Shown piece by piece: positions 41,953 through 48,821 of a stretch of 50,720 nt of DNA. Position 1 is the stretch's first letter; each line of letters begins with the position of its first letter. The position numbers were made by a program, and so were the translations under genes. The stretch is taken from assembly GCA_029213195.1 (NCBI GenBank), contig JARGNI010000041.1, positions 1-50,720 of the forward strand, written 5' to 3'. The stretch is from Verrucomicrobiales bacterium. Lineage in GTDB: Bacteria; Verrucomicrobiota; Verrucomicrobiia; Verrucomicrobiales; DEV007. Under the pieces are notes generated by a model, which made no database searches, had not been told where the DNA came from, and saw only the letters and a program-made list of their open reading frames with translations.

Positions 41953-43332
41953 TCAGGCCTTCATTTCCTCAATCTCTTTCGTCGCAATCCCGACCGGGCG
42001 GTCCAGCGGGACGCCGGCGCAAGAAAGCAAGGTCGAGAGGAGGTCGCCTTGATTGCCCTTCGTATCGGCGAGGAAGCGACCGGTATGGAGGGAGCCACCG
42101 CCTTTGCCAGCGAGAATGAAAGGGAGATTTTCGCGGGAGTGCCGATTGCCGTCCTCGAGCCCTGAGCCCCACATCATGATGCAATTGTCGAGAAGAGTGC
42201 CGTCGCCTTCGCGCAGACTCGCCATCTTCTTCACCATGTAGGCATATTGATCGATGTTGAATTTGGTGATCGCCGCCACTTTACCGACTTTCTCTTCGCC
42301 GTTGTTGTGGTGGGTGGTGGAGTGGTGCGTATCGGTAAAACCAAGCTCGGGATAGGACACCCCGTTCGGCGTCGAGCCAATGTAGGTGCTCACTCGAGTC
42401 GTATCGGTCTGGAAAGCGAGGATGTTGAGATCGCACATGACCTGCATGTATTCACTCCTCTTGTCGCCCTCGGGAATCTTGATCTCGATCGGTGGTGAAT
42501 CGGCGGCATGACGCTTCTTCGTACTGACTCCCGCCTTTTCCAACGATGCCTCTGCCTGTCGGGATTCGATCGCTGCGATACGCCGCTCCACCGAGCGAAC
42601 GCTGTCGAGATATTCGTCGAGCTTCTGCTGGTCGTCACTGGCGAGCGTTTTTCGCAAATCCTTTGCTCCACCGATGACGTGGTCGAGCATCTGCCTGTCG
42701 AGTGGCGAAGCCTTGGTGACCCGCGCGTCCTTGCCTCGCTTGCCGAAGAGCCGGTTCAGAACGTTCCTCGGATCGATCTCCGCAGGAACAGGCTGAGTGG
42801 GCGAGCGATAGCTGCAGTGAGAATAGTAGGCCTCATGGAGACCTTCCTGGTTTTCCTTGTGAGTCTGCGGCATCGTCGCCAGTTCGAGGGAGGGAAGCAG
42901 AGTCTGAGCTCCGACATAGTTCGCCATGACCTGGTCCGCCGAGATGGCGATGTTGACCCGACTGCGAGTTTCCGAGTCGGGGAGTCTCGCAGTGAGCCAC
43001 GTGGAGAGTTCCAGGGCATGAGGTGCTCCATTGAACGGGGAGATGGGCACGCCGGAAATCCCTTTCATCATGAGACACTGATCGAGGACTGGCCGCAACG
43101 CTTCGAGGGCGGGAGGAGGCGTATCGAGGAAGCTCTCGGGCGACTTCGGCCAGAACTGGTCCATGATCACACCATGCGGCATATACATGAACCCGAGGCG
43201 AACGGGGGGCTTGACCGGGCTGGCACCAACGGTCCGCACAATAGAGTCCAGGAAGGGAAGTGCCAGGGAAACCCCCGCTCCCCGGAGAAAGTTGCGACGA
43301 TCCAGAAATGAGTGGGCGGATGGAGTTTTCAT
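41953..43332 (-). CDS. DUF1552 (HXXSHH) Tat-exported protein (copy 3)
   Basis: Protein of 459 aa from ATG 43332, with twin-arginine leader ([20 protein letters not shown]). [13 protein letters not shown] and the family motif, here HSTTHH at residues 337-342 (Thr for Ser), identify DUF1552. The late segment [20 protein letters not shown] and the [10 protein letters not shown] stretch match other members. Function unknown. It follows DUF1592 copy 3 by 29 bp on the same strand, so the pair is an operon. All three copies in this window differ at one position of the HxxSHH motif or match it exactly only in copy 2. Confidence 0.88.
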
Positions 43333-43361
43333 AGATTCTCTCTGCGATGGTATCATGGAAA

Positions 43362-45296
43362 TTATCCTTCGATTTTCCGATGGGTAAACAAATAACTGGT
43401 AATGACCTCGGTGATGATTGTCCGCACTCGGAAGTCGTCCTCGGCAATCCGTCTCATCAACCGGTCGATCACGATTTCATCGTAGCCTTCGAGTTGTCGA
43501 CCGAGAGCGTGGGCCATCAATCGCTCCGTCAGATTCCGGGCGAGGTCGGATTCCCGATCGGCAAGCAGGCCCTTCAATTCTGCTGGAGTCGCAAAGCCTT
43601 TTCCGGAGGGAAGCTTTCCTTTTGAATCGATCGCAACCCCCGCGGAGTCCCGATCCCGCCAACGTCCGATCGCGTCGAAGTTTTCGAGACCGAATCCAAT
43701 CGGGTCAAGAACCTGGTGACAGTTGGCACAGGTAGCCTCCGACTGATGCAACTCGGTGAGCTGGCGCAGCGTCAATCCCTCGAGATCTTCTCCTTTGAGC
43801 TCTTCCAGTTCAGGAACGTCTGGCGGAGGGGGAGGAACTCTCTCTCCGAGGACCTGTTCGAGCACCCACACCCCACGCCGAACGGGACTGGTTCGCCCGG
43901 GGAACGACGTCGAAGCCAGGGTCACCGGCATTCCGAGGATCCCACCGCGGTTCGGATTTGCCAACTCGACCCGTCGCATCTCCTTTCCCTGAATCGTTTG
44001 CTCAAGTCCATACAACTCCGCGAGCGGCTCATTCACGAAGGTGTAATCGCTGTCCACAAAACGCACCACGCTCTCGTTTTCTCGCACTACGCTTCCAAAA
44101 AACAGTCGTGCCTCGTCCATCATCGCCTTGCGCAAGTCCGGCGTCACCTCGGGAAACAGGTCTGGATCGAAGACCTGTTGTTCGAGTCCATTCACTCGCC
44201 ACCACTGCGCACCAAAGCTATCGAAGAGAGCCCGGGAGCGGGGATGCGCGAGAAGCCTTTCCACCTGGGACCGCAAAACTTCGGTTTTCCGCAGGTCACC
44301 CTTCTCGGCCAGCGCAATGAGTTCGTCATCCGGTGGTGCCGACCAGAGCAGATACGAAAGCCGTGAGGCCAATTGATAATCGTCGAGGCGCACGATGGAT
44401 TCATCCGAGTCCACCTCCTCCGCGGGAGTGATGAAGAGGAACTGGGGAGAGACGAGGACAGCCTTCCACATCAGCGTGAGAGATGCGGTGTAATCCAGTT
44501 GGTTCTCCCGCGCGAGATCGAAGACACCGACGAGAACATCGAGTTCCGAATCGCTGGGTGGACGACGAAAGGCATCGCGAGCCAGCGATTGTGCCACCCT
44601 GCGAGCCTCCTCCCGGAGATCGGCGCCATCGGATGGTGTTTCGCCAAAGAGCCGCTTCTGAACCGCGGCCGGATCCTCGCCTTTCGCGGCCAGGACCTCT
44701 TCGACTACGCGATTGGCGATCTCCAGATACAACTCGGATTGCAAGGGAGAGATCGAGTTGAGAAATCCCTCCCCCACGACCTCATCGGGCAGGACTCCGA
44801 CAATGCCTGGATCCACTCCGTAGAGATCCTGCAGCGTGTTCCCATACTCCACCTTGCTGAGACGACGAATCACAAAAGGCCCCGGGTCGCGTGGGGCGAG
44901 ATACTTCAGCTTATCGATCCACTCGGCGAACTGGCGACGTTCCTCGTCCGTCGGAATCTTGCTCACGTCCTCCTCCGGGGGCATGTCGTGGACCTTGACG
45001 TTCGCAACCGCCTTTTTCCAATGAAGGAACGAGGAGGCACTGCCAGGACTCTTGAGCGCCGACTTGAGATTGACTCCGCCTTTCGGCCGAGGCCCGTGGC
45101 ATCGAATGCAATAATTCTCGACAAAGGGCGCTACGTCTTCCTTGAACGTTTTTCGAGCATCGGCCCGAAGCGCTGCCTCGTCGCTCGCCTCCTCCTTGGT
45201 TTCAGCCAGGCAAGGAAGCTCGACTAACGAACCCACAAACAAGCCCAAGACCAGAGCGGTCTTCGAAAAAAAGGGGGAGTGGCAAGATCGGTGCAT
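43362..45296 (-). CDS. DUF1587/DUF1592/DUF1588/DUF1585 cytochrome-like protein (copy 3)
   Basis: Exported protein of 644 aa, the shortest of the three copies. ATG 45296 gives the signal [21 protein letters not shown]. Haem motif CIRCH is at residues 63-67; DUF1587 follows ([20 protein letters not shown]), then DUF1592 ([20 protein letters not shown]), DUF1588 ([18 protein letters not shown]) and DUF1585. The second motif, CANCH, is at 523-527. The beta-rich middle region present in copies 1 and 2 is missing here, which accounts for the shorter length. The role is inferred to be extracytoplasmic electron transfer. It is the first gene of an operon with DUF1552 copy 3. Confidence 0.9.
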
Positions 45297-45453
45297 ACAG
45301 ATTTTTAATACAGTATTGCCGTGGAACCTGGATGGGCAATCCCCTGCTCGCGCCATTTCCCCTGTCCGAAAAGGAACACCCTTGCCCTCTCAACGCAGAC
45401 GAGAAGGTCAAATCGTAGAGCAGATTCGGATTTCGGAAGAGTTTTCCTCGGGA

Positions 45454-47298
45454 CTACGGCTTCTCCATCCGGAAAGAGTCAAAGAGCTGCCCCTCGAGGT
45501 CGTAGGCTTTGAATTCGAGCGTTTTTCCGTTGATCCATACCATCGAGTAGTGGTGCCCCCGGCGCACGATCAATTCGAAGGGAGTCCGAAACGGCCCCGG
45601 AGTTTCGAGATGACCACCCCCACCACCTGTAATCATGTAGATCGGTGCCTCTTTCTCCGCAGGCATGCCATTTCGTATCGGCCAGGTCCGCTCGTAGGAA
45701 TGGATATGCCCGTTCCAAACGATGTCGACGCCATACTTGTCATAGAGAGGCGCTAGTTTCCTCGCATTGATATCGCCGCGCGAACTGACATTCTTCTTCC
45801 AGAGATCGCCATAGTCATTCTCGTCCGAGGAATAGACTGGGTGATGATGACTGACAAATTTCCAAATCGCGTCGCACTCGCTGAGTTCTTTCTCGAGCCA
45901 CTCATACTGCTCCGATCCGGGTCCGCATTTCTTGTTGGTGTCCAACATGAAAAAGCGGGCATCCCCGTGTTGAAAGGTGTAATAATATTCCGGATCCGGA
46001 AGCGACATATAATGATAGTAGTGAGAGGCATTCTGCTCGTGATTTCCGAGAACTGGAAATAGAGCGACACGTGAAGTCAGCGGTTTCATGCTTGCAAAAA
46101 ACTGCTCCACCCACTGTTTCTTGATTTTGCCGGTCGAAACCAAGTCACCGGGGTGAAGGAGAAAATTCGGGCGCTGATTCCAGGCTTGCTTGGCGAGATT
46201 TCCTGATACCTCCGGATTCCCCTGGGTATCGCTGATCACGGCAAAGGCAAAGGGCACCCCAGGCCCCGCATCGGTTTGAAACGTGAAAACCTCCGAATCG
46301 ACTGTGTTCCCCCCATGAGTGGAAGAAGTTCGATAAAAATACTGGGTGCCAGGTTTCAAGCCCGTGAGAGGAATTTCATGGATGCCTTTCCTGGAAGCAA
46401 TGGCAGAAGTCTGATTTTTGCACTCAGCATCTTCGCCGTAATGAACAACACCTTCCGAAGGAAGACTGGTTTCCCACATGACCGTAATTCCCGTCTGAGT
46501 CACCCATTGCAAATATGGGTCGACGACAGAGGTGAACGGAAGCTGGATCGACTCGGGCACCTCCGCTTCTATCCAGTCGGCATTGTGATCGAATTCCTGC
46601 TGAATCCATTCGGCTTTCGCAGCTTGTTGATAGACGTGAGCAGAAATGAGTTGTCCCTGGTGAGGAAAATTCTCATTGCTGTCAAAATAGCCGCCGAGAC
46701 TGAGATGCGTTTTCTCCGAATAGACGATATCACTTCCGGGACTCGCGTCCGTGCCTTCCTCTTTCCCGTTCACATAGAGCTTCAGCTCGGAACCGTCGTA
46801 GGTAGCTGCCACGTGATAGAGCTTTCCCAATTCATAGGAGGTCTTTGACCTGAGGGTGATCAGCTTCCCATCTCCATCATTCGTTTCTTCAGTTGAGAGA
46901 CTGACGCAAAATTTTTCCTCATCATAGCCCAGCACCCAACCTTTTTCGTAGCCCCCATTGTCTTCCTGGGAACCGATCAGCCCACCATATCGTTGAGGAG
47001 AGTGAACGCTGCACCAGACTGCGAGCGTAAAGCCTTTCTTCGGCAAGTCCTCGGGCGCTGATACGTGGGGCGTAATCCCCGTCCCCTTCAAAAAGAGACC
47101 TCGCTCTGTTTTGAGAAACTGATCCGATGAGAGAGGGAGATCAGGCCCCTGCTGCGCGGTGAGCCGACCATTCTCAAGAAATGTAGCCTTTAAGGACCAA
47201 TGGAAGACAGGATCTGGACCGTCGTGCCCGAGTGCCAGCGTTGCAACAGCCAACGAGAAAACGACAAGGACTTGCGAGACACGAGCATCAATCGACAT
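45454..47298 (-). CDS. Secreted LamG / purple-acid-phosphatase-like metallophosphoesterase
   Basis: Protein of 614 aa from ATG 47298 (signal VSQVLVVFSLAVATLALG). Residues about 30-230 form a LamG-type jelly roll (FTLAVWCSVHS, ATYDGSELKLYVNGKEEGTD, LSLGGYFDSNENFPHQGQL). A fibronectin-III-like purple-acid-phosphatase N-domain follows (ITVMWETSLPSEGVVHYGED, LTGLKPGTQYFYRTSS). The dimetal catalytic domain has FAVISDTQGN, LHPGDLVSTG, VLGNHEQN, FVSHHHPVYS and WNGHIHSYERTWP, the complete metallophosphoesterase set. It should hydrolyse phosphate esters outside the cytoplasm. The lectin-like domain suggests anchoring to glycans. It is divergent from the selenoprotein gene, with about 100 bp between start codons. 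Confidence 0.9.
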   Translation of the reverse strand: MSIDARVSQVLVVFSLAVATLALGHDGPDPVFHWSLKATFLENGRLTAQQGPDLPLSSDQFLKTERGLFLKGTGITPHVSAPEDLPKKGFTLAVWCSVHSPQRYGGLIGSQEDNGGYEKGWVLGYDEEKFCVSLSTEETNDGDGKLITLRSKTSYELGKLYHVAATYDGSELKLYVNGKEEGTDASPGSDIVYSEKTHLSLGGYFDSNENFPHQGQLISAHVYQQAAKAEWIQQEFDHNADWIEAEVPESIQLPFTSVVDPYLQWVTQTGITVMWETSLPSEGVVHYGEDAECKNQTSAIASRKGIHEIPLTGLKPGTQYFYRTSSTHGGNTVDSEVFTFQTDAGPGVPFAFAVISDTQGNPEVSGNLAKQAWNQRPNFLLHPGDLVSTGKIKKQWVEQFFASMKPLTSRVALFPVLGNHEQNASHYYHYMSLPDPEYYYTFQHGDARFFMLDTNKKCGPGSEQYEWLEKELSECDAIWKFVSHHHPVYSSDENDYGDLWKKNVSSRGDINARKLAPLYDKYGVDIVWNGHIHSYERTWPIRNGMPAEKEAPIYMITGGGGGHLETPGPFRTPFELIVRRGHHYSMVWINGKTLEFKAYDLEGQLFDSFRMEKP

Positions 47299-47402
47299 GA
47301 TCAAGAGTTAGCAAGATTCTCTCGATTCACAATACAGAAACATTTCGTCGATTTCGCTGCTTCCTCACGAAACCCAGACGGCATCCTGGAGTTTAATGAG
47401 GC

Positions 47403-48821
47403 ATGATCGCAAAACTCTTTTTCGCTTCGGCTTTGTCGCTTGGACTGACCCTCATGCCTGCGTTCTCTCAGAGAGGCGGCAAAGGCAGCGGAAGTCCTCT
47501 GCCTTTACAGGGAAAACCACTCCCCGAGGTGATCGCCTACGATGAATCCGGAGCTGAGTTCCCCCTTCTCCAGAAGACCAGGGATCGGTATACCGTCATT
47601 GTCTTCGGCTGCCTGACGTGACCCCCATTCATGCGTAATGTCCCCGGTCTGGAGACAGTCTATCTTGATTACAAGGAAAAGGGCGTTGATTTTTTCTATG
47701 TCTACAAGAGCCTGGCCCACCCGGAGAAAAGCGGCTTTGTTCAACCCGTCACCCTTGAGGAACGCCTCTCACACATCGAAGCAGCCAAGAGGCAACTAGG
47801 TACCGAAATACCCTGGTTGGCGGACTCGATGACCAATCAACTGAAGCACGCCTTCGGCGATCGTAACAACTCGGAGTTCGTCATCTCTCCGGAAGGAAAA
47901 GTGATCATCGCACGAAGTTGGAGCAGCCCTTCCCAACTCCGTTCCGATCTGGTGGAACTGGTAGGAAAGTCGGAGACGACGACGGCGATTTCCGATCTCG
48001 AACTCAAGATTTCCACGGCAATCCCTCAGAAGCCTGAAAAAGTTGCGACAGGAGTCATCCCACGAGTCGAACGTCCTTCAGGAGCCATTGCCCTGATCAG
48101 CAAGAGCATTCCCTCTTCCGATTTGAGAGAAGCCCCCCGATCTTCGAAAGAAACCGATTCGCCTTCTCATCCGCTCTACGCCAAACTGCGTGTCGAAGCC
48201 ACCCCCACCACGTTCAGCGCTGGAAGCACCGGCACCCTGTATCTCGGCTTTCACCTAGACCCGATCTATCCCGTTCACTGGAATAATCTCGCGGCTCCCC
48301 TGACTTTCACGATCGCCCTCCCGAGTGGAGTTACCCTTTCCAAAGCCAGCGGCACAGCTGACATTCCTGAAAACACACCTGCCGACTCGGATCCTCGAGA
48401 GTTTCTTCTCGACTTCGAAATCGGAGAAGAAGTTGATCTCAACGAACCCCTGAATCTCACAGTAAACTACTTCGCCTGTGACGACGACGATCAATGGTGC
48501 AAGGCAGTGACCCAAGTCTACGAAATCTTTTTGAAGACAGATCGCGATGCAGGTCGAGTCCAAGCCGGAGGAAAGCGGACCGGGAACGATCGAGGCAAGG
48601 GTCGTGGCCAAGCCCCCCAGGGCGGAAGCCCCCAGATGCCAAGCATCGCCGAAATGATGGAACGAATGGATCAAGACGGGAATGGAATCGTGAGCAAGCA
48701 GGAAGCGCGGGGCCCCTTTCAAATGCACTTCGACCGACTCGACACGAATGAAGACGGAGGACTGGATGAAACTGAGCTGAAGACGATGCAGGAGCGAAGG
48801 CAGCAGATGCGCCGCCGATGA
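47403..48821 (+). CDS. Deiodinase-like selenoprotein (Sec73) fused to DsbD-alpha-like and EF-hand domains
   Basis: One gene of 472 aa if TGA 47619-47621 is read as selenocysteine. ORF 47403-47621 and the open frame up to 48821 are in the same frame and joined only by this TGA. Signal peptide: MIAKLFFASALSLGLTLMPAF. The thioredoxin fold (about 45-190) has FGC70LTU73PPFMRNVPGL; vertebrate iodothyronine deiodinases read FGSCTUPPFM at their active site and EAHP about 30 residues later, here LAHPEKSGF (H106). C70 and U73 make a CxxU motif. Residues about 257-377 resemble the DsbD N-terminal (alpha) domain, with C359-x6-C366 (YFACDDDDQWCKAV). Two EF-hand loops end the protein (about 423-434, 447-458). 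A SECIS-like hairpin follows the TGA. The start ATG 47631 of an ordinary gene call would lose signal and active site. Function is inferred: an exported thiol or selenol redox enzyme, not proven deiodinase. Confidence 0.85.
47619..47621 (+). other. In-frame TGA read as selenocysteine (Sec73)
   Basis: The TGA falls exactly where deiodinase-like relatives have Sec or Cys (FGxxT-U/C-PPF). It is followed by C, as in known bacterial Sec codons, and there is no other stop in the frame from 47403 to 48819. Confidence 0.85.
47639..47657 (+). promoter_or_regulatory. Bacterial SECIS-like hairpin
   Basis: TGTCCCCGGTCTGGAGACA folds with TGTC(47639-47642)/GACA(47654-47657), a bulged A47653, CC/GG, and a loop CGGTCT. 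The loop GGUC (47646-47649) matches the GGUC of the E. coli fdhF SECIS loop. The loop G lies 24 nt after the TGA, inside the 16-37 nt range typical of bacterial SECIS elements. SelB would bind it and deliver Sec-tRNA. Confidence 0.7.

Follow-up and report, generated by a model that had tools for sequence, protein, structure and literature searches.

The window, that is, the whole stretch of 50,720 nucleotides analyzed here from a Verrucomicrobiales bacterium (the host), contains a reading frame on its forward strand that starts with an ATG at 47403 and ends with a TGA stop codon at 48819 to 48821. Apart from a TGA at codon 73, this frame is open over 472 residues. It appears as two ORFs in one frame (47403 to 47621 and 47631 to 48821), which the original prediction had joined into one gene split by the TGA. 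Direct reading of the frame confirmed a single gene whose TGA at codon 73 is read through. The product across the TGA is ...VIVFGCLT-U-PPFMRN..., and the AHP motif, predicted about 30 residues further on, starts at residue 105, 32 residues past U73. As had also been anticipated, plain gene finding called 47631 to 48821, a product that lacks both the active site and the signal for export. The positions of all features are given in the table below.

Features of the selenoprotein gene in the window (positions are those of the window)
Feature	Position	Strand	Basis
Whole selenoprotein gene, 472 residues with Sec73	47403..48821	+	Frame read directly; full-length relatives with internal TGA
Apparent signal peptide, residues 1-22 (AFS/Q)	47403..47468	+	Judged by eye from the sequence
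Deiodinase/thioredoxin-like domain, residues 31-189	47493..47969	+	AF2 model; VIA-align with Dio2 9h48 and Dio3 4tr3; Pfam
Cys70 (probable C-x-x-U partner)	47610..47612	+	Cys in 82/82 aligned sequences (required by the gene-picking pattern); also in the 18 sequences of alignment A1
TGA read as selenocysteine, Sec73 (nearly certain)	47619..47621	+	TGA in 79/80 loci; Cys in paralogues
Bacterial SECIS hairpin (predicted), loop GGTCT at 47646-47650, 24 nt past the TGA	47639..47657	+	Covariation; RNAalifold; synonymous codons; bSECIS criteria
His106, aligned with Dio2 His162 and Dio3 His202	47718..47720	+	Profile alignment; His in 82/82 (gene picking required AHP)
DsbD_N-like beta-sandwich domain, residues 222-384	48066..48554	+	AF2 pLDDT 90.4; Pfam in relatives; hhalign
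Cys359, putative second redox pair	48477..48479	+	82/82 aligned sequences
Cys366, putative second redox pair	48498..48500	+	82/82 aligned sequences
EF-hand pair, about residues 415-470	48645..48812	+	Pfam EF-hand_1, 27.6 bits (cut-off 25.4); 17/18 members

A TGA-split frame by itself proves nothing, because a mechanical scan with lax limits found 12 such frames in the window, this one included. Nine of the other 11 were inspected by eye, and none had a comparable motif. The evidence that this frame is not a chance product comes from a Pfam deiodinase match spanning the TGA, from the best PDB sequence match of the product, which was Dio3 (E 9e-6), and from the conservation of the TGA. The protein is probably exported or secreted, judging from its N-terminal sequence. 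A promoter scan gave no match. No convincing conserved gene neighbors were found, the largest non-self cluster being present in 14 of 80 loci, with a start that looked sulfatase-like by eye. On the opposite strand upstream (41953 to 47304, minus strand), the window encodes a DUF1552 protein, a DUF1592-type protein and a LamG/purple-acid-phosphatase protein.

Two sets of relatives were used to examine how far the TGA is conserved. Among the 74 genomes of the host family, 17, the host counted, encoded a full-length relative whose FGCLT-U-PPF motif contains the TGA, and the 16 relatives from outside the host were 46 to 57% identical to the window protein. In a scan of genome contigs, 134 stretches were matched, 123 of which encoded a relative, and the best 80 of these 123 were kept as loci. 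Since the 80 loci overlap the 17 family genomes (e.g., L109 and L031), the two counts were not summed. The L031 protein, from a genome (G020) of the host genus, shares its active-site stretch with L109, a named Verrucomicrobiales MAG, and from this the host was placed in Verrucomicrobiales. The scan was not biased toward TGA, because one of its two patterns spelled Cys at the site and was unable to find TGA. The site was found by its motif in 75 of the 80 loci and was always TGA (76 genes, with two in L167); of the five loci missed by the motif, four had TGA and one, L187, had Cys. TGA was thus present at exactly the position of codon 73 in 79 of the best 80 loci. The products of the loci sharing the TGA were 40 to 54% identical. 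The named sources of the 80 loci were Verrucomicrobiota, Planctomycetota, Acidobacteriota and Kiritimatiellia, with two labeled just "bacterium."

This conservation bears on whether the locus might instead be a sequencing error, a pseudogene or a pair of separate genes. Standard gene finding does yield two ORFs, as such a reading would have it, but the same TGA recurs in genes whose products have diverged this far, and the base composition by codon position was similar on either side of the TGA. We consider the probability of this explanation negligible. The one Cys-containing locus, L187, grouped with support of 100/99 inside a clade that also holds the Sec-encoding genes from L167 and L176, which fits a Sec-to-Cys change. 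The in-frame UGA aligned with Cys of homologues (L187 and the CxxC relatives), which is one criterion for a bacterial selenoprotein; aligning Cys homologues to codon 73 had been proposed as a check from the outset. Near-fixation of Sec holds for the CLTUPP clade and not for the wider family, and the earlier statement that deiodinase-like proteins of PVC bacteria usually carry Cys was wrong for this subfamily. A phylum-wide claim was dropped, with the domain profile matching 9 of 288 genomes of the phylum at E <= 1e-15 and TGA being found in the host match only.

We then analyzed the hairpin located downstream of the TGA. A gapless alignment of 54 bases starting at codon 72 was made from 75 distinct sequences: that of the window and those of 74 motif-found genes (76 less two identical copies). 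L134, L151, L157 and L175 were left out. The hairpin corresponds to columns 24 to 30 pairing with columns 36 to 42. Paired cells accounted for 88.4%, compared with 83.3 +/- 0.6% after shuffling, a percentage favored by the fact that the hairpin was chosen from these same sequences. Two-sided (compensatory) cells numbered 33, compared with 9.4 +/- 3.1, and the covariation was 0.259, compared with 0.158 +/- 0.010, a value also inflated by the relatedness of the sequences. None of the 500 shuffles reached any of these three values. Two-sided changes occurred in three pairs, a number equaled in 3 of 500 shuffles; further pair types did not exceed those of the shuffles (104 of 500 as high). When the register was slid, each of six alternatives paired less and covaried less than the hairpin; the register at +1 equaled it in the number of pairs with two-sided changes (3) and had more pair types (9 versus 8). 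Nearly the same helix was recovered by RNAalifold, unprompted.

Synonymous codon usage, a test independent of covariation, pointed to the same place. After correction for the codon use of each pair, with 80 of the 82 sequences kept, the excess of synonymous-codon identity at residues 80 to 84 was 0.41, 0.71, 0.75, 0.26 and 0.28, whereas the 188 usable columns averaged 0.04. Among 100 usable column windows, the best-scoring one began in this stretch, on the hairpin. Of the seven hairpin pairs, five to seven were formed in Sec sequences (75/75), versus two to three in four Cys copies. A fifth Cys copy, L107 (G052:C114), retained a SECIS-like hairpin, as judged by eye, and its frame looked broken right after the site; this copy is either a recent Sec-to-Cys change or a sequence error.

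The published model of the bacterial SECIS (bSECIS) has an apical loop of 3 to 9 nt, a stem of 4 to 16 bp, a G in loop positions 1 to 2, a distance of 16 to 37 nt from the UGA and an energy of <= -7.5 kcal/mol. The hairpin has this geometry, with a loop of GGUCU and a stem of six pairs plus one mismatch, 24 nt from the UGA. Its energy of -5.8 kcal/mol misses the limit of -7.5 kcal/mol, which is a prediction threshold and was reached by four of eight sequences folded (the window and seven relatives). Folding energy alone gave no signal for the window versus shuffled sequences (z of -0.54 over 26 nt and +0.51 over 71 nt). The comparative data support the view that the hairpin is under selection as a SECIS element, despite its weak energy. 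Predictors that apply an energy limit may miss SECIS elements of this kind, which combine a weak energy with strong covariation.

Next, the selenium machinery was searched for in the host genome, a draft of 5.9 Mb in 115 contigs that is 95.4% complete. Matches for selD (379.6 bits), selA (521.1 bits) and selB (301.3 bits), each over its cut-off, were clustered at C21:12202-20420. The host selD has one internal TGA, read as CAG-U-AS (L024; about 4185 to 5246 of L019), and probably encodes a selenoprotein itself. Between selA and selB lies a phosphonate-type ABC importer (L019:6890-10465, host contig C21) with a binding protein (PF12974), an ATPase and two permeases; it is possibly a selenium-oxyanion importer. 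In the host family, a selA match (E <= 1e-3) was found in 17/17 genomes carrying the selenoprotein gene versus 33/57 other genomes (Fisher p 7e-4, with relatedness and incompleteness ignored). A selA above the family cut-off was found in 15/17 carriers (G035 and G065 having fragments) versus 32/57 others.

The search for sel genes suggested by the original prediction thus returned selA, selB and selD; none of three methods (covariance model, pattern and BLAST) located selC, the gene of tRNA-Sec, in the assembly of the host. The RF01852 searches scored 150 of 929 candidates in the host and 49 per genome in the family. Nine host matches of RF01852 were ordinary tRNAs, and matches of 47 to 50 bits in genomes lacking selA are probably not tRNA-Sec. 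The tRNA-Sec pattern had two matches in the host, one overlapping the tRNA-Leu of L009 and the other not a tRNA-Sec by eye. BLAST of the host with the selC of a relative gave nothing better than E 0.27. Inspection by eye found the pattern in all 14 tRNA-Sec genes printed from relatives, which indicates that a similar gene is really absent from the host assembly. Genomes of the same genus carry tRNA-Sec with the anticodon TCA, and at least a partial tRNA-Sec was found in 15/17 carriers (by RF01852, or by BLAST, run on 8 genomes), the host and G036 having none. BLAST with the same selC gave split or edge copies in two relatives. The match in G029 ran exactly to the end of its contig, and an additional piece lay close to the beginning of a different one; in G057, a contig start was where the match began. 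We took the missing host selC as an assembly gap. Absence of the sel genes from a complete host genome had been named as evidence that would speak against Sec; the absence of selC does not amount to this, because the draft is at 95.4% completeness and selC itself is interrupted by assembly breaks in two relatives. These tRNA-Sec genes broken at contig ends (L093, L094, L100 and L101), with extra partial matches in G057, perhaps mark selC as an integration site in G029 and G057.

The missing selC is what could favor a reading of the TGA as something other than Sec, i.e., as another residue or as Cys at low selenium. However, the host has selA, selB and a selD with its own TGA, the hairpin appears to be selected for, and tRNA-Sec with the anticodon TCA is present in the same genus. 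We therefore regard such a reading as very improbable. With TGA in 79 of the best 80 loci, a covarying SECIS hairpin and the host selA, selB and selD, Sec at codon 73, as first proposed, is close to certain.

The N-terminal domain was compared with known families and structures. Pfam T4_deiodinase (PF00837) scored 27.7 bits, barely over its gathering cut-off of 27, and was matched by 17/18 members at E <= 0.1, with Redoxin and AhpC-TSA below their cut-offs. The NCBIfam model NF038285 (deiodinase_rel) matched the domain at 63.7 bits, far under its cut-off of 250, so that the protein is not a member, and no NCBIfam model takes in the window protein. An AF2 model with a mean pLDDT of 82.6 was aligned by VIA-align with mouse Dio2 (9h48; Z 19.6, 2.6 A, 157 residues) and Dio3 (4tr3; Z 18.6, 3.0 A, 158 residues). 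The next matches were SdbA (Z 18.0) and ResA (16.8), with rows within 1 Z counting as tied, and TlpA, CcmG and peroxiredoxins were also among the close folds. In Foldseek with the whole model, the top rows were C-terminal domains of mycobacterial DipZ with low TM-scores, and they were not built upon.

In profile alignments with Dio3 and Dio2, Thr72, Sec73, Tyr101 and His106 aligned with Dio2 Thr129, Sec130, Tyr157 and His162. The position of Dio2 Glu160 was occupied by Leu104 (Leu in 82/82), and Dio2 His182 had no counterpart. Genes had been picked by a pattern requiring Cys70, Cys or Sec at 73, the prolines and LAHP. Passages of PMC11592359 describe Thr129, Tyr157 and His162 as active-site residues of Dio2 and Glu160 and His182 as residues of its proton relay. 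For DIO1, a section of PMC9141512 reports that H174A stayed active and H174Q was inactive. One explanation is that the protein really is a reductive dehalogenase, with halogenated aromatics as the substrates of a bacterial deiodinase that works via a selenenyl-halide. Dio2 and Dio3 as top fold matches and the aligned T-U-P-P-F, Thr, Tyr and His residues favor it. However, deiodinase activity is not implied, because the two residues assigned to the proton relay in passages of two papers, Glu160 and His182 of Dio2, are absent; a dehalogenase would also leave the Cys pair of the fused DsbD_N-like domain unexplained. We regard this explanation as improbable. The description of the protein as deiodinase-like holds for fold and motif and does not extend to these two counterparts.

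Position -3 relative to Sec73 is Cys70 in the window protein and Ser in Dio. In human DIO1, according to a passage of PMC9141512, a proximal Cys at -2 makes a selenenyl-sulfide, and Cys70 may be the resolving residue here. In an HMM alignment with ResA, Sec73 fell on the first Cys of CxxC and Phe76 on the second. These positions matter for another explanation, in which the protein resembles ResA, TlpA or CcmG and works as a thioredoxin-type reductase on protein disulfides or metal sites, not as a peroxidase, the DsbD_N-like domain being a client adaptor. This would agree with the presence of ResA, TlpA, CcmG and SdbA among the close folds and with the CxxU/CxxC motif, but with Phe76 at the second Cys of ResA, the usual resolving Cys is missing, and the possible partner lies at -3. 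A reductase of this type seems to us unlikely.

The second domain has a conserved Cys pair that played no part in gene picking. Pfam DsbD_N (PF11412) was found in 30/55 members at E <= 1. When ten members were scanned singly, L160 was over the cut-off of 25 (27.5 bits), seven were below and two had no match; the window's own domain had no Pfam DsbD_N match. The domain was aligned by hhalign with eight DsbD_N domains from genomes of the host genus (E 1e-4, probability 58), and this alignment put Cys359 and Cys366 on the Cys pair of DsbD_N, near the C-terminal end of the domain. In Foldseek, the DsbD_N entries 1l6p, 6dps and 6dnv were weak matches (E 0.02 to 0.06) amid other Ig-like folds, and a second structural search gave no DsbD_N among the 50 matches listed, most of them being Ig-like folds such as those of adaptin-ear and transglutaminase domains.

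The two redox pairs were also compared across distant relatives. In L189 to L192, L046, L104 and L105, CxxC was present and the second Cys pair was kept; both Cys/Sec pairs thus occurred together in these 7 CxxC relatives, as in 6 main-clade sequences. In L193 to L197, GDLTD replaced CxxU, and both Cys of the second pair were gone too (5/5). All five come from one genus, and their joint loss of both pairs is probably one event. Joint retention and loss of the pairs fit a shared function. L193 to L197 are large relatives, with a beta-helix at the front of L193. In the host, a long ORF (an open frame of 784 residues) combines a DsbD_N domain with a hydrophobic middle and a thioredoxin-like FVDFTAEWCVTCK stretch; judged by eye from these features, it seems to encode a DsbD.

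We consider, with moderate confidence, that the best explanation is a periplasmic selenol/thiol redox enzyme to which a DsbD-like electron relay of its own has been fused. That the protein is a thiol/selenol redox enzyme is very probable; the case for an intramolecular electron relay is evenly balanced. The gene, its conserved Sec codon, the hairpin, the three host sel genes, the predicted folds and the conservation were shown above; from these, we infer that the protein is exported and does redox chemistry, and that a relay runs in the direction proposed here. The protein would be a three-part exported selenoprotein, consisting of a thioredoxin fold of the peroxiredoxin/deiodinase type with the active site Cys70-Leu-Thr-Sec73-Pro-Pro-Phe, a DsbD_N-like domain with Cys359/Cys366 and a C-terminal EF-hand pair. 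The UGA would be decoded as Sec by SelA, SelB and tRNA-Sec, guided by the hairpin 24 nt downstream. Sec73 would attack an oxidized substrate (a peroxide, a sulfenic acid, a disulfide or a related oxidant), and the oxidized selenium would be resolved by Cys70 as a selenenyl-sulfide. Electrons would be handed on by Cys359/Cys366 of the same polypeptide, their source possibly being the apparent membrane DsbD of the host. There is an even chance that this constitutes a new architecture, i.e., an exported single-chain relay in which a Sec domain of the peroxiredoxin/deiodinase type has a DsbD_N-like domain as its own reductant and is joined to a calcium-binding EF-hand module. In such an architecture, Sec would be close to fixation over four phyla, and the two redox pairs would be retained or lost together. 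If the relay is real, a self-contained selenium/sulfur electron chain would operate within one exported protein, and this structural cousin of the vertebrate deiodinases could be used for studying the origin of deiodination.

Bacterial deiodinase-like proteins with Sec have been known since 2005. In the Sargasso Sea survey of that year (PMC1088965), a table row gives 4 and 6, which we take as the Sec and Cys forms, and the GOS survey of 2008 (PMC2398784) reported them again, with 22 sequences in the first column of its table. As far as these tables and the accompanying passages go, those proteins (PF00837) resemble the window protein in having Sec at the deiodinase position, a bacterial SECIS and Cys homologues; a redox role was suggested for them as well. 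Passages of two reviews (PMC9312934 and PMC13188914) give the bacterial form as UxxC, and by this published description, the window protein is set apart by CxxU-PPF, the lack of a Cys at +3 and its DsbD_N-like and EF-hand parts. With vertebrate Dio1 to Dio3, it shares the fold, TUPPF and the active-site Thr, Tyr and His, whereas its proximal Cys is at -3 (-2 in DIO1), Glu160 and His182 of Dio2 have no equivalents, and an apparent signal peptide and extra domains are present. Like DsbD (DsbD_N, PF11412), it has a DsbD_N-like domain with a Cys pair and a thioredoxin fold on one chain; unlike DsbD, it has no membrane domain, the thioredoxin fold comes first, Sec is at the attacking position, and the Cys spacing is wider (C-x6-C). 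NF038285 matches its N-terminal domain, well under the membership score. TsoB, a selenoprotein resembling a rhodanese/DsbD fusion according to a table row of PMC13188914, is also a DsbD-like fusion but is rhodanese-like with UxxxxU. No published report of the CxxU/DsbD_N/EF-hand form with nearly fixed Sec was found in the literature searched, which included passages of PMC1088965, PMC2398784, PMC9312934, PMC13188914, PMC4807772, PMC5029168 and PMC12013277, and the form with CxxU and a DsbD_N-like domain looks new. Because gene finding cuts the gene at its active site, a putative cell-envelope selenium enzyme found in members of at least four phyla is easily overlooked.

Two further deiodinase-like forms were observed. 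A second Sec-containing group with FGS[YH]T-U-GPF is present in genomes of the same family (L048 to L053 and L055), and L048 has EF-hands in front. In addition, the host encodes a 577-residue protein (L106; C20:71704-72783) with two T4_deiodinase stretches and no TGA, the first stretch having FGSATCSF.
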